NCBI RefSeq assembly: GCF_005502465.1
Contig: NZ_SCOT01000005.1
Span: 62,001 to 126,000, forward strand
Reading direction: 5' to 3'
Length of the DNA: 64,000 nucleotides
Origin: Sphingopyxis sp. L1A2A
GTDB lineage: Bacteria; Pseudomonadota; Alphaproteobacteria; Sphingomonadales; Sphingomonadaceae
This document shows positions 13,104 to 64,000 of this stretch, one piece after another (position 1 is the stretch's first letter; every line of letters begins with the position of its first letter). The notes beneath the pieces are model-generated. The model did no database searches and had not been told where the DNA came from. It worked only from the letters and a program-made list of their open reading frames with translations. The translations under genes and the position numbers were made by a program.

Positions 13104-13244
13104 TTGACGACTCTCCCGCTAATGTTCTGACGACGCTCTCCCTATTCGATAGGCTGGATCGCGGCGAGCAAGCAAATCTTGAAACCCCAATATCGGTTCG
13201 CATCGTGCGAAGTCGAGATGCCGCTCGGCAACGCCCGCCTTCAT

Positions 13245-13296
13245 GGTGTCTCGACCCTTCGGCACGCTCAGGACAGGCTTCGCTCGACACGAACGG
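13245..13296. repeat. Palindromic repeat, family A (degenerate copy)
   Basis: GGTGTCTCGACCC at one end and GCTCGACACGAACGG at the other are recognisable family-A arm pieces, but the middle is replaced by a CGGCACGCTCAGGACAGG-type segment. It lies in the 240-bp gap between the divergent acs and aldehyde dehydrogenase genes. The rest of that gap (13104-13345) shows no gene. Confidence 0.6.
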
Positions 13297-13345
13297 GGAG
13301 AGGGGATTAGAGGGCGGCGCAAGGATGAACACGAGAGGAAAAACA

Positions 13346-40773: not shown

Positions 40774-43700
40774 TCAAACGACCTGCTTCGCCAGCTTCGC
40801 CAACCCCTTTGACAATTGCAGCGCGCCGTTCAGCCGCGCTCCGGTGCTCACCCAGTCGCCGCTCACCGACAGCTTGTTGTCGGGGCGAAGGCGGGCGCGG
40901 CCTTTAAGCCGTTCGACATAGGCGATCAGCCCGGGGACATTGGCGAACTGGTCGCTGTGGAACGACACGAGTGCGCCCTTGGTGCCGACGTCGAGCTTGG
41001 CGATGCCCGCGGCGCGGGCGTTCGCCTTGATCTCCATCAGCTGGACCAGGTTCGCGGTTTCGGGCGGCAGCGGGCCGAAACGGTCGATCATCTCGGCCGC
41101 AAAGGCGTCAAGGGCCGGACGGTCGGCGGCGTCGTTGAGGCGGCGATACAGCGCCATCCGCAGCGGCAGGTCGGGGACATAATCCTCGGGGATCAGGATC
41201 GGCGCGTCGACGGTGATCGTCGGTGACAAGGCTTCGCGCGGGGGCAGCTTGCCCGCGCCTTCGGCCTTGGCCATCAGGATCGCCTCTTCCAGCATCGACT
41301 GGTACAGCTCGAATCCGACCTCGCGGATATGGCCCGACTGTTCGTCGCCGACGAGATTGCCCGCGCCGCGAATGTCGAGATCGTGGCTCGCCAGCTGGAA
41401 CCCCGCGCCCAGCGTGTCGAGATCGCCGAGCAGTTTGAGCCGCTTTTCGGCGGTGTCGGTGATCGCACCATGTTCGGGGGTGGTGAGGTAGGCATAGGCG
41501 CGCGTCTTGGCGCGTCCGACGCGCCCGCGCAGCTGATACAGCTGGGCCAGGCCAAAGCGGTCGGCGCGGTGGATGATCAGCGTGTTGGCGCTCGGGATGT
41601 CGAGCCCGGATTCAACGATGGTGGTCGACAGCAGCACGTCATATTTGCGGTCGTAAAAGGCGCTCATCCGGTCCTCGACCTCGGTCGGGGTCATCTGGCC
41701 GTGGGCGACGACATATTTGATCTCGGGCACGCGGTTGCGCAGGAATTCCTCGATATCGGGCAGATCCTTGATCCGCGGGACGACGAAGAAGCTCTGCCCG
41801 CCACGGTCATGTTCGCGCAGCAACGCTTCGCGCAGCACGACGGCATCCCACGGCGCCACATAGGTCCGCACCGCGAGCCGGTCCACGGGAGGCGTCTGGA
41901 TAACGCTGAGTTCGCGGAGGCCCGACATCGCCATTTGCAAGGTGCGCGGGATCGGCGTAGCGGTGAGGGTGAGGACGTGGACGTCGGCCTTGAGCTGCTT
42001 GAGGCGCTCCTTGTGAACGACGCCGAAGCGCTGTTCCTCATCGACGATGACGAGGCCGAGGTTCTTGAACTCGACCGATTTGGCGATCACCGCATGGGTG
42101 CCGACGACGATATCGATGTGGCCGCTGGCCAGTCCGTCGCGCGTCTTTTGCGCTTCACCGGCGGGGACGAGCCGCGACAGGCGGCCGATGTTGACCGGGA
42201 AACCTTTGAAACGCTCGACAAAATTGGTGAAATGCTGGCGCGCGAGCAAAGTCGTCGGCACGACCACTGCGACCTGCACTCCGGCCATCGCCGCGACGAA
42301 GGCGGCGCGCAGCGCAACCTCCGTCTTGCCGAACCCGACGTCGCCGCAGACCAGCCGGTCCATTGGCTTCCCCGACGCCATATCGGCGAGCACATCGCCG
42401 ATCGCGCGGTCCTGATCGTCGGTTTCCTGATAGGGGAAGCGGTCGGCAAAGGCGGGGTAGGCGGCGTCCTGCGCCAGCAATTCGCCCGAGCGCAGCGCGC
42501 GCTGTGCCGCGGTTGCGAGCAGTTCGCCGGCGATCTCGCGGATGCGTTCCTTCATCCGCGCCTTGCGGCGCTGCCATGCCTCGCCGCCGAGCCGGTCGAG
42601 CGCGACGCCGTCGCTCTCGCCGCCATAGCGCGACAGGACGTCGAGATTTTCGACGGGGACATAGAGCTTGTCGCCGCCCGCATAGGTCAGCGCGACGCAA
42701 TCATGCGGGCTGTTGCCGACCGGGATCGAGGTCAGTCCCTCATAGCGCCCGATGCCATGATCGAGATGGACGACCATGTCGCCGACGCTGAGCGTCGCGA
42801 GCTCGGCGAGGAAGGCGTCGGCGCTCTTGCGTCGTTTCTGGCGGCGGACGAGACGTTCGCCAAGAATGTCCTGTTCGGTGAGTAGGCTGATCGCATCGGA
42901 GGCGAAGCCGTGGTCGAGGGGGAGGACGATGAGCGCGACGTTGCCGCTTGGTGAGCCGCCTCCCAACCCGTTCGTGTCGAGCGAAGTCGAGACACCCCTC
43001 GGGGTGGCGCTGTTCTGCGCGGTGTCTCGACTACGCTCGACACGAACGGAACTCGAACCCAGTGCTTCCTGCCAAGTCTCTGCCTGCACTAACCCGGTAA
43101 CGCCATGCTCGCGGAGCAGCCCGGACAGGCGCTCGCGCGCGCCGCCTGAATAGCTGGCGATGATCGTGCGCCGCCCCTTGCGGCGTTCGTCGCTCAGATG
43201 ATCGGCGACCTTCTGATAGACATTGGCGTCGGCGGCGCGCTCGGGGGTGAAATCGCGCGCGGCAAAGGTTTCGAGGTCGATGACCTGCGGCGACGGCGCG
43301 ACATCGAACGGGGTGACGACATGGACTGGGCGGCTGCGCGCAGCGCCCGCCCATTCGGCCTCGGTCAGATACAGCGTCTCGGGCGCCAGCGGGCGATAGC
43401 TGCCGGTCGACTCCTGTTCGGCGGCGACGCGGTTGGCATGATAATCGGCGATCGCGGCAAAGCGCGTCTCGGCGGTCGCCTCGCTGCGGTGGCCGCGCAG
43501 CACCGGGGTTGCGGGGTCGATATGGTCGAACAGCGTCGCCAACCGCTCCTCGAACAGGGGCAGCCAATGGTCCATGCCCGCCTGCCGCCGCCCCTCGCTG
43601 ACCGCCTGATACAGCGGATCACCGGTCGCCTGCGCCCCGAACAGGTCGCGATAGGTCGAGCGGAAACGTTTGATCGTCGCTTCGTCGAGCAGGGTTTCGG

Positions 43701-44358
43701 TGGCGGGGAGCAATTGCAGCGCCTTGGCGGGACCAAGGCTGCGCTGGTCGGCGGGGTCGAAGCGGCGGATGCTTTCGATCTCGTCGCCAAAGAAATCGAT
43801 GCGCAGGCCGTTTTCTTCGCCGGCGGGAAACAGGTCGACGATGCCGCCGCGCACTGCAAACTCGCCCTGGTCGGCGACGGTATCGACGCGGCTGAAGCCA
43901 TTGGCGACGAGCAATTCGGCGAGCGAATCGCGGTCGATCCGCTGCCCCGCCGCCAGCGTGGTCGCGAGCTGGCGGATGCGGAACGGGGTGAGGGTGCGCT
44001 GAGTGATCGCGGCGACGGTGGTCAGGATCAGCTCGCCGCGCTTCGCCGGCTGTTGCAACGCCGACAGCGTCGCCAGCCGGTCGGCGCTGACCCGCATCGA
44101 CGGCCCGGCGCGGTCATAGGGCAGGCAGTCCCACGCCGGGAAGCGGTGGACAATGAGGTCGGGGGCAAAGAAGGGTGCGGCGTCAGCGACCGCCTGCATC
44201 GCCGCATCGTCGGTCGCGACATAAACCAGGCGCCGGTCGCTGGCGCGCGCCAGATCGGCGAGCAGCAGCGGCAGGAAACCGTCGGCGGCGCGCGCCAGCG
44301 TCAGCGGCGCCGCTGCCGATCCGATCGCGGCGAAGATGTCGGCGGCGGGCGTCGTCAT
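40774..44358 (-). CDS. mfd: Transcription-repair coupling factor Mfd
   Basis: 1194 residues. Mfd removes RNA polymerase stalled at lesions and recruits UvrA. The UvrB-like N-terminal region (from residue 1), the RNA-polymerase-interacting CarD-like domain (VGDMVVHLDHGIGRYEGL), RecG-type translocase motifs with Walker A GDVGFGKT near residue 670 and DEEQ near 771, and a C-terminal TRCF domain are all seen. Residues about 437-464 (VRVERSRDT...GVSTSLDTNG) are not Mfd sequence but the translation of a family-A palindrome (42968-43049) lying in frame before the polymerase-binding domain. The frame continues on both sides. The start ATG overlaps the sdhE stop (ATGA). Confidence 0.96.
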   Translation of the reverse strand: MTTPAADIFAAIGSAAAPLTLARAADGFLPLLLADLARASDRRLVYVATDDAAMQAVADAAPFFAPDLIVHRFPAWDCLPYDRAGPSMRVSADRLATLSALQQPAKRGELILTTVAAITQRTLTPFRIRQLATTLAAGQRIDRDSLAELLVANGFSRVDTVADQGEFAVRGGIVDLFPAGEENGLRIDFFGDEIESIRRFDPADQRSLGPAKALQLLPATETLLDEATIKRFRSTYRDLFGAQATGDPLYQAVSEGRRQAGMDHWLPLFEERLATLFDHIDPATPVLRGHRSEATAETRFAAIADYHANRVAAEQESTGSYRPLAPETLYLTEAEWAGAARSRPVHVVTPFDVAPSPQVIDLETFAARDFTPERAADANVYQKVADHLSDERRKGRRTIIASYSGGARERLSGLLREHGVTGLVQAETWQEALGSSSVRVERSRDTAQNSATPRGVSTSLDTNGLGGGSPSGNVALIVLPLDHGFASDAISLLTEQDILGERLVRRQKRRKSADAFLAELATLSVGDMVVHLDHGIGRYEGLTSIPVGNSPHDCVALTYAGGDKLYVPVENLDVLSRYGGESDGVALDRLGGEAWQRRKARMKERIREIAGELLATAAQRALRSGELLAQDAAYPAFADRFPYQETDDQDRAIGDVLADMASGKPMDRLVCGDVGFGKTEVALRAAFVAAMAGVQVAVVVPTTLLARQHFTNFVERFKGFPVNIGRLSRLVPAGEAQKTRDGLASGHIDIVVGTHAVIAKSVEFKNLGLVIVDEEQRFGVVHKERLKQLKADVHVLTLTATPIPRTLQMAMSGLRELSVIQTPPVDRLAVRTYVAPWDAVVLREALLREHDRGGQSFFVVPRIKDLPDIEEFLRNRVPEIKYVVAHGQMTPTEVEDRMSAFYDRKYDVLLSTTIVESGLDIPSANTLIIHRADRFGLAQLYQLRGRVGRAKTRAYAYLTTPEHGAITDTAEKRLKLLGDLDTLGAGFQLASHDLDIRGAGNLVGDEQSGHIREVGFELYQSMLEEAILMAKAEGAGKLPPREALSPTITVDAPILIPEDYVPDLPLRMALYRRLNDAADRPALDAFAAEMIDRFGPLPPETANLVQLMEIKANARAAGIAKLDVGTKGALVSFHSDQFANVPGLIAYVERLKGRARLRPDNKLSVSGDWVSTGARLNGALQLSKGLAKLAKQVV
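42968..43049. repeat. Palindromic repeat, family A, inside mfd
   Basis: 29-bp arms (42968-42996 and 43021-43049) differing at one position, with a 24-bp loop. Same arm sequence as the intergenic copies at 44666, 53717 and 56759. Here it is read through in frame by mfd and adds roughly 28 residues. AAC occurs directly on both sides (42965 and 43050), perhaps by chance. Confidence 0.92.
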
Positions 44359-44615
44359 GGCAGCGGGATATAGTCCAGGCGGCGCATCGCGGCGATCATC
44401 GCAGGACGGTTCAGATGCGCGGGCGGCTCGCCGGTGCCGAGCGCCCACGCCATGATGTCGACATCGTCTTCCTCGACGACGATTTCGTACCAGGCGATCT
44501 CGTCCTCGCTCCACGTCGCGGCATAGCGGTCGAAAAACCCGCCGATCATATAGTCGGCCTCGCGCGTGCCGCGGTGCCAGGCGCGGAATTTCAGGCGTTT
44601 GAGGCGGTCGGTCAT
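44355..44615 (-). CDS. sdhE: Succinate dehydrogenase assembly factor SdhE
   Basis: 86 residues. SdhE/YgfY attaches FAD to the SdhA flavoprotein. The conserved RGTREADYMIGGFFD block contains the RGxxE flavinylation motif, and DDVDIMAWALG lies in the second half. The ATG at 44615 gives the standard MTDRLKRLKFRAWHRG opening; the open frame extends to 44765 only through a family-A repeat and is not used. The stop overlaps the mfd start (ATGA), the familiar alphaproteobacterial order sdhE-mfd with recG divergent. Confidence 0.95.
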   Translation of the reverse strand: MTDRLKRLKFRAWHRGTREADYMIGGFFDRYAATWSEDEIAWYEIVVEEDDVDIMAWALGTGEPPAHLNRPAMIAAMRRLDYIPLP

Positions 44616-44665
44616 GGCGGGCCTTTTAGTCCGATCGAATGATTCAGCAACGAAGATCACCAAGT

Positions 44666-44747
44666 CCGTTCGTGTCGAGCGAAGTCGAGACACCCCGGCG
44701 GACAGCGCTATCCCGCCGGGTGTCTCGACTTCGCTCGACACGAACGG
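44666..44747. repeat. Palindromic repeat, family A (perfect copy)
   Basis: Perfect 30-bp arms (44666-44695 and 44718-44747). It fills most of the 159-bp gap between the divergent sdhE and recG starts, ending 27 bp before recG, so it sits in both promoters. Confidence 0.92.
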
Positions 44748-44774
44748 AATGTGGGGGCTAGACACGCCCTAGCC

Positions 44775-53716: not shown

Positions 53717-53796
53717 CCGTTCGTGTCGAGCGAAGTCGAGACACCCCTAAGGCGCGCGCCACCGATGGGTGTCTCGACTTCGCTCGACACGAACGG
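53717..53796. repeat. Palindromic repeat, family A (perfect copy)
   Basis: Perfect 30-bp arms (53717-53746 and 53767-53796) with a 20-bp loop, between the coxE-like gene end and the amj start. Arm sequence identical to the copy at 44666. Confidence 0.92.
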
Positions 53797-56758: not shown

Positions 56759-56832
56759 CCGTTCGTGTCGAGCGAAGTCGAGACACGCTAAGGCGGCGCC
56801 AGACGTATCTCGACTTCGCTCGATACGAACGG
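56759..56832. repeat. Palindromic repeat, family A
   Basis: 29-bp arms (56759-56787, 56804-56832) with two G-T style differences and a 16-bp loop, between the convergent chemoreceptor and moxR ends. Confidence 0.9.
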
Positions 56833-63698: not shown

Positions 63699-64000
63699 TT
63701 AGCTCCCCTCCCGTCCCTGCGCGGGGAGGCCATACCCCCACCTCCGTTTGTGTCGAGCGAAGTCGAGACACGTCGGCGCCCAGCTTCACGTCCCTCGACT
63801 TCGCTCGGGACGAACGGAGAGGGTGCGTGTTCCTCAAAACACACTGTGAGGTCCGGGCGTTCGTGAGGTGGCCTGGCAAAATGGCTGACCATTTCCCAGT
63901 CGCCCCGGATCAGCGCCTCTTTTTTCGCGCGCGACCAGGGCTTGATCCGGCGTTCAGCCTCCAGCGCCTCCACGCGCGTCGCAAAATCCTGCGACCAGAC
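63695..64000 (-). CDS. GIY-YIG nuclease, C-terminal part, ending in a repeat
   Basis: Open at the right window edge; about 101 residues seen. VWSQDFATRVEALEAERRI followed by KPWSRAKKEALIRGDWE is the typical end of the small GIY-YIG family (UPF0213/YhbQ-like); the GIY and YIG motifs lie outside the window. After FARPPHERP the remaining 50 residues (PFVPSEVEGREAG, RVSTSLDTNGG) are the translation of a family-A palindrome plus spacer, and the stop overlaps the dnaG GTG. Whether this tail is a functional part is unknown. Confidence 0.85.
   Translation of the reverse strand, partial: VWSQDFATRVEALEAERRIKPWSRAKKEALIRGDWEMVSHFARPPHERPDLTVCFEEHAPSPFVPSEVEGREAGRRRVSTSLDTNGGGGMASPRRDGRGAK
63743..63817. 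repeat. Palindromic repeat, family A (imperfect), inside GIY-YIG gene end
   Basis: Arms CCGTTTGTGTCGAGCGAAG.. (63743-63767) and ..CTTCGCTCGGGACGAACGG (63791-63817) with several mismatches. Its central GTCGAG-CGAA-type parts match the other family-A copies. It is read through by the GIY-YIG frame and lies 45 bp upstream of dnaG. Confidence 0.85.

Follow-up and report, generated by a model that had tools for sequence, protein, structure and literature searches.

REPINs consist of two inverted hairpin units with a spacer between them and are mobilized by RAYT transposases. Palindromes that are translated in frame are already in print: Rickettsia palindromic elements (RPEs; Ogata 2000, 2002, as cited in PMC10969869 and PMC2229807) are characterized in those sources as several families of ~100-150 bp that lie in frame in conserved genes and are tolerated, and gmk bearing an RPE insert is reported to be translated and active (PMC2229807). 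PMC3733652 describes GTAG- and CGTC-tagged REPs and their dimers inside DNA-repair and other genes, many encoding 20-30 residues, and mentions REP inserts in a tRNA synthetase and in truB of S. alaskensis; it proposes flexible linkers or loops and points out that recB of two Xanthomonas species holds different REPs in nearly the same position. Prokaryotic MITEs are depicted in PMC10969869 as small, inverted, non-autonomous and sometimes coding.

The sphingomonad elements considered here, which we labelled as families A to F by eye or by short patterns, resemble RPEs in their mode of insertion, being repeated palindromes in frame in conserved genes and missing from homologues; they differ in having free-living GC-rich hosts, in being shorter and in that one site is filled by unrelated families across species. 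Like MITEs, they are small, inverted, non-autonomous and sometimes coding, but no target-site duplication was found and the parent-element search, which covered Y1_Tnp only, gave no match in the genome holding our sequence. Family A shares with REPINs the arrangement of two inverted hairpin units around a spacer. Neither the GTAG nor the CGTC tag of the REPs in print was visible by eye at the ends of 40 family A copies with 12-nt flanks or of the family B copies, whereas the TCGTCATCCCGG.. repeats of the same region are tagged. The Xanthomonas recB case concerns one gene in two species, whereas the sphingomonad sites comprise four genes in many species. Since RPEs and in-gene REPs have been published, in-frame palindromes as such are known, and the new part is the existence of fixed sites with turnover of unrelated families, for which the remark on Xanthomonas recB is the nearest printed precedent found. 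Our literature search, judged by titles and the starts of abstracts, yielded no report recognized as describing palindromes in Mfd or sphingomonad harbour sites; the nearest was PMC3733652, whose main text does not contain the word mfd, though its supplementary lists of intragenic REPs may include such a case.

The window, meaning the whole stretch of 64,000 nucleotides that was analysed, belongs to a Sphingopyxis genome (G000) and carries mfd, the gene for the transcription-repair coupling factor, on its minus strand. A preliminary description had claimed that a palindrome repeated elsewhere in the window lies inside this gene and that the mfd frame runs through it, and both claims held. The features concerned are as follows.

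40774..44361, minus strand: mfd, 1195 aa from the start taken as real; the frame is open to 44514
42940..43056, minus strand: variable mfd loop between WQEALG and VALIVLPLDHGF, 117 nt in G000 versus 27 nt in six listed uninserted Sphingopyxis loci
42968..43049, no strand assigned: family A palindromic element, 82 nt, a REPIN-like dimer of two inverted hairpin units whose in-frame translation is VRVERSRDT...GVSTSLDTNG
42968..42996, plus strand: element arm 1, itself a hairpin, GTGTCGA-GCGAAG-TCGAGACAC
43021..43049, minus strand: element arm 2, the opposite arm of the family A palindrome
13191..13305, no strand assigned: diverged family A copy, from sequence comparison
44665..44748, no strand assigned: family A copy between recG and a small ORF, on the upstream side of the latter
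53717..53796, no strand assigned: family A copy, from comparison and inverted-repeat scan
56759..56832, no strand assigned: family A copy, from comparison and inverted-repeat scan
63742..63819, no strand assigned: diverged family A copy, from comparison and inverted-repeat scan

The minus-strand ORF at 40774-44514 contains no stop across the palindrome, whose arms pair over 29 nt in the inverted-repeat scan (contig C55, 104968-105049), and the 84 nt at 42968-43051 are 86% identical to 44666-44749, beside a small ORF that we presume to resemble sdhE. At least 40 distinct family A copies were aligned in G000 (40 of 92 candidates scored), each with two inverted hairpins of GTGTCGA-GCGAAG-TCGAGACAC type on either side of a variable spacer, so that all 40 have the two inverted REP units that define a REPIN dimer. 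Several have GCATC/GATGC as the outer stem instead, both sides being altered together. An inverted-repeat scan of 821,130 nt (22%) of G000 detected 83 loci with arms of at least 18 nt, of which family A accounted for 24. A chance palindrome is ruled out by the copy number of family A and the scarcity of inverted-repeat loci in the genome, and a sequencing artefact is ruled out for the phenomenon by its recurrence in many independent assemblies, although it is possible for one genome, G093. Stop-free frames were dropped as a signal of selection: 193 of 228 copy-frames were open in the 38 family A copies outside mfd and coaBC, and missing stops are therefore no evidence of selection, while element length modulo 3 is uninformative because the element ends are uncertain. 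CGTC-tagged palindromes (TCGTCATCCCGGACTTGATCCGGGATCC) were almost as frequent as family A (18 versus 24 of the 83 loci) and occur in the window at 601, 5580, 11056, 18107 and 55138; none was flagged in frame within a gene in the 821 kb of G000 scanned.

Within the protein, the element corresponds to about residues 438-465 and the whole variable loop to residues 436-474, giving 39 residues compared with 9 in uninserted relatives, a net gain of 30. About 28 residues had been anticipated just before the RNA-polymerase-binding domain; the extent of the element stands, but the domain lies ~60 residues farther on (RID, 524-579), between UvrB_inter (136-222) and DEAD (647-809), Helicase_C (845-952) and TRCF (1052-1142) in the Pfam annotation. 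The protein matches E. coli Mfd (2eyq), residue 477 aligning with residue 428 of the 2eyq chain, which presumably places the insert region inside domain D3 of that structure. AlphaFold2 predicts that the insert is a disordered extra loop: model residues 126-157 (Mfd 440-471, most of the insert and its right flank) have pLDDT <50 and no secondary structure, and are flanked by a helix at 116-122 and a strand at 161-165, in a 286-residue model that is modest overall (shallow alignment of 32 sequences, mean pLDDT 65.5, pTM 0.49). Mfd is dispensable in E. coli, and the label 'essential-type' gene was too strong for it; the label fits carA, coaBC and valS, discussed below, better.

Our genus sample comprised 80 Sphingopyxis genomes, of which 77 gave an Mfd match and 76 a loop that was read wholly or partly (G017, G087, G089 and G095 were unread); loop lengths were recorded for all 76 loci. 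Over the whole analysis, loop DNA was tabulated for 32 inserted or remnant and six empty loci. A palindrome occupied the mfd loop at 22 of the 76 loci, remnants were found at three (G083, G073 and G065, which by eye retain A-type flanks) and no palindrome was found at 51. The contents were family A in eight, one of which (G084) was read in part up to a contig end, family B (CTCCCGCTTGCGGGAG) in 13 and, in G082 (L126), a perfect palindrome of 64 nt that has family A outer ends but a different core. Measured from W to F, filled loops spanned 150-189 nt, and empty loops were 81 nt in 47 of 51 cases and 72 nt in the other four. A gap in relatives without the repeat had been predicted and was found, the loop being 90 nt shorter (81 versus 171 nt) in G085, G020, G033 and others, with the adjacent bases differing too. 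The reading of the locus as a coding insertion missing from close relatives, with RPEs as its precedent, is upheld. The empty loop of G085 (ACCGCTTCGGCCGAAAGCGG..), like that of G020, is a small near-palindrome in its own right, possibly an old scar.

The reading frame was kept in 20 of the 21 inserts readable across both flanks. The exception was G093 (L121, Sphingopyxis sp. PET50), in which the mfd frame is lost inside a family B insert, in a run of C; the valS frame of this genome (L384) is also lost inside a B insert, and its assembly is one contig but 87% complete, making homopolymer sequencing error likely for both breaks. Genome G087, scored 100% complete, gave neither an Mfd match nor one at RecG level (best 4e-13), reflecting either a recG-mfd gap or a real loss.

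Outside the genus, at least seven of 289 matched genomes (289 of 291 in the family sample) carried an insert in the mfd loop, with follow-up given to split, several or weak matches (14 genomes outside the genus, then 33, none of the 33 split), the remainder taken as uninserted from a single match and G110 not parsed. These seven spanned six genus codes and held family F, a B-like variant (G193), D (G196, G286 and G340), E (G393) and B (G320 and G328). The loop of Sphingorhabdus profundilacus (L181) also holds B, giving a total of eight non-Sphingopyxis genomes with B, F, D or E, and two relatives have a short SGRGT stretch that we read as a scar. The same residues in distant Mfd proteins would have spoken against an insertion; they were absent, with no insert in 12 loops from other families of the order (13 fetched, one unparsed).

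A tree of the mfd flanks that excluded the loop (89 rows, 1260 columns) required 24 changes of insert state, compared with a least possible 7 and a shuffled mean of 33.2; the tree is of a single gene, its bootstrap had not quite converged and there is evident recombination, and the 24 changes are therefore not counts of insertion events. Sister species carried different contents, including G071 (A) and G097 (B) with support 100/97, G002 (B) and G083 (A remnant) with support 100/95, while G000 (A) grouped with G085 (none) with support 96/80. We then compared insert state with flanking bases in 70 Sphingopyxis rows, of which 23 held an insert or a remnant and 47 held neither (G014, G016, G090, G101, G082 and G084 dropped). 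Mean excess mutual information in four 15-nt bins upstream of the loop was 0.16, 0.34, 0.21 and 0.10 bits, falling to 0.00-0.04 bits beyond 60 nt, and downstream it was 0.44 bits at 1-15 nt and at most 0.05 farther out. Third codon positions gave 0.162 within 60 nt upstream versus 0.012 and 0.010 farther out, and since they carry the signal, it resembles shared descent of a small segment and not only convergent amino acids. On these alignments, the loop segment is mosaic relative to the remaining mfd. Twenty nucleotides upstream of the loop, all 23 insert or remnant rows but none of the 47 empty rows of this main set had C, a pattern not expected if elements landed at random on any allele, although the insert of G082 comes without this C. 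Family A and B flanks differed little (seven versus 13 rows, bin means at most 0.06 bits) and, with no clearly different flanks, in-place replacement and exchange by recombination are indistinguishable.

The mfd loop is not alone. Two of the 40 family A copies of G000, those in mfd and coaBC, are in-frame parts of conserved genes, and the inverted-repeat scan of 83 loci led to mfd, carA and valS as accepted in-gene inserts. The automatic coding test, based on GC at third positions, also flags antisense or doubtful frames and misses inserts near gene ends; it flagged six of the 40 A copies, of which the two were accepted, and six of the 83 loci, of which three were accepted and C69 80658, C11 87141 and C11 246128 were set aside. 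The sites of the three further accepted coding inserts of G000, in coaBC, carA and valS, likewise hold several families in related species. At the coaBC linker, 21 loci contained A (3), B (11), E (1) or none (6), counts that are not frequencies, the loci having been picked by eye, mostly for long gaps. For carA, 23 of the 80 genomes had matches split on one contig, G020 a match split over two contigs, 49 a continuous match and seven no match; 22 of the 24 split loci were read and contained B (17) or A (5), and no palindrome was found in the four continuous loci read. ValS matched in 75 of 80 genomes, nine of them split, and the 17 loci read held B in six cases (one with only a left arm, one frame-broken), E in two, another design in one, a single A unit in three, a decayed single A unit in one and no palindrome in four. 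Here the empty site LELIK-GAIDDETK compares with LELIK-PVSSEVER-GAIDDETK in single-unit inserts, a clean 24-nt addition. The coaBC and carA inserts fall between Pfam domains and the valS insert splits one. Apart from those of G093, the inserts read in the four genes are all open and in frame. The carA locus of G097 (L368) has, in addition, a short imperfect tandem duplication after its A insert (GNHGAAHGNQGAAQ).

Some inserts contain more than one palindrome. Inspection by eye showed a third hairpin within the family B spacer in mfd of G081 and G100, coaBC of G076 and carA of G070, and an E-like stretch inside the hairpin loop of an A arm in carA of G003, which suggests that palindromes may enter palindromes. 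The nested stems of the mfd loops L114 (G081) and L119 (G100) differ yet pair fully (GTGTCACGAG/CTCGTGACAC and GTGACAGGAG/CTCCTGTCAC), and L113 (G097) has a matching change in both B arms; hairpin-templated mutation or separate insertions could be behind this variation.

How the elements move was sought in RAYT genes. G000 had 0 matches to PF01797 (Y1_Tnp), a match was found in 15 of 80 relatives, and no A or B unit, allowing up to 2 mismatches, lay near the 10 RAYT-like loci fetched from relatives; in both respects family A differs from REPIN/RAYT systems, and RAYT was rejected as the mobilizer of A and B. An E-like stretch occurred in four of the 10 fetched loci. Inverted-repeat scans of four loci showed other palindromes within ~1.5 kb at three and none at the fourth. 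The RAYT-like genes of two relatives (L279 and L280) lie near AT-rich palindromes (for example CAATAAATAGGGACTGTCCCTATTTATTG), unlike the GC-rich A and B. No target-site duplication was seen in mfd, where empty and filled alleles are strongly divergent beside the loop, and none was obvious by eye in the valS single-unit inserts.

We consider it probable, at about 0.72, that a non-autonomous family A palindrome landed in frame in a short Mfd loop that is one of a few harbour sites with family turnover. A REP-like hairpin dimer would have landed at one of these sites, mainly short interdomain linkers, where 25-40 additional flexible residues would do little harm; elements would arrive, be lost leaving scars and be replaced by other families, partly by insertion of new palindromes into old ones and partly by interspecies homologous recombination of short loop-bearing tracts. 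Mfd would then be produced carrying an additional disordered loop, with the element gaining persistence and the host remaining nearly indifferent. The entry of an element into mfd, as first described, is in this sense real, but it was not a single entry, given that the loop holds B, F, D and E elsewhere, as do the coaBC, carA and valS sites their own range of families. A few protein linkers seem to be parking places for palindromic repeats.

Occupation of all four sites accepted in G000 by other families elsewhere would also fit host selection in Mfd, CarA, CoaBC and ValS for flexible linkers that are longer, charged or rich in proline, with palindromes supplying them, as would the co-occurrence of inserted Mfd and inserted CarA in 67 genomes (counts 12, 6, 10, 39; Fisher p 8e-4, odds ratio 7.8, uncorrected for ancestry or element load; three Mfd remnants excluded, G020 scored inserted for carA). 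That association may, however, come from shared ancestry or element load, the inserted sequences have no relation to one another and are translated in more than one frame (B giving SPLPLAGG or SPSRLREG), and 51 of 76 species manage without an insert, so that a useful loop is unlikely. We give marginally less credence to one ancient insertion in the family ancestor, inherited ever since, with sequence differences reflecting divergence of a single element. The insert does start a few residues past ALG in most genera read (later in G393), its right flank VALIVLPL is also present in the uninserted outgroup L180, and F is a B-like variant; yet A, B and E have different cores, each repeated in G000, with no graded series, A and B occur in sister species, and the inserts outside the genus were found in at least seven of the 289 matched genomes. 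The family-specific cores count against an ancient insertion as the sole cause, and the form of the idea that survives is a single ancient insertion whose content was later replaced in place.

Bypassing elements have been reported in other systems, and the very stable hairpins predicted for the loop RNA (-60 to -112 kcal/mol for full inserts, as raw values) would suit a palindrome excised from the mRNA or bypassed by the ribosome, leaving a protein without insert residues such as VERSRDTAQNSATPR. The inserts at the four genes are nevertheless in frame, G093 excepted, which counts against excision since an excised element needs no frame, and we judge this explanation highly improbable. Returning to harbour sites with turnover, three accepted sites in 22% of G000 correspond to ~13 per genome by our own arithmetic, and with occupancies of 29% for mfd (22 of 76) and about a third for carA (23 or 24 of 73), very roughly ~50 usable sites are obtained, a figure of arithmetic and not of measurement. 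It is a more tentative suggestion, which we hold to be possible but on balance doubtful, that ~50 fixed harbour sites exist in sphingomonad housekeeping proteins and are occupied in turn by unrelated palindromes, through hairpin-targeted insertion at palindromes or scars or through selection for a longer linker. If true, a protein loop would be a long-lived docking site common to competing selfish elements.

For annotation, the finding carries a warning that ~30 residues of Mfd, CarA, CoaBC and ValS are repeat-derived in some of these bacteria. One Mfd loop that is empty, filled by different palindromes or scarred in close free-living relatives represents a natural experiment with replicates, in which the tolerance of proteins for new segments, the movement of small palindromes with no known transposase and the spread of short mosaic segments from species to species can be tested.
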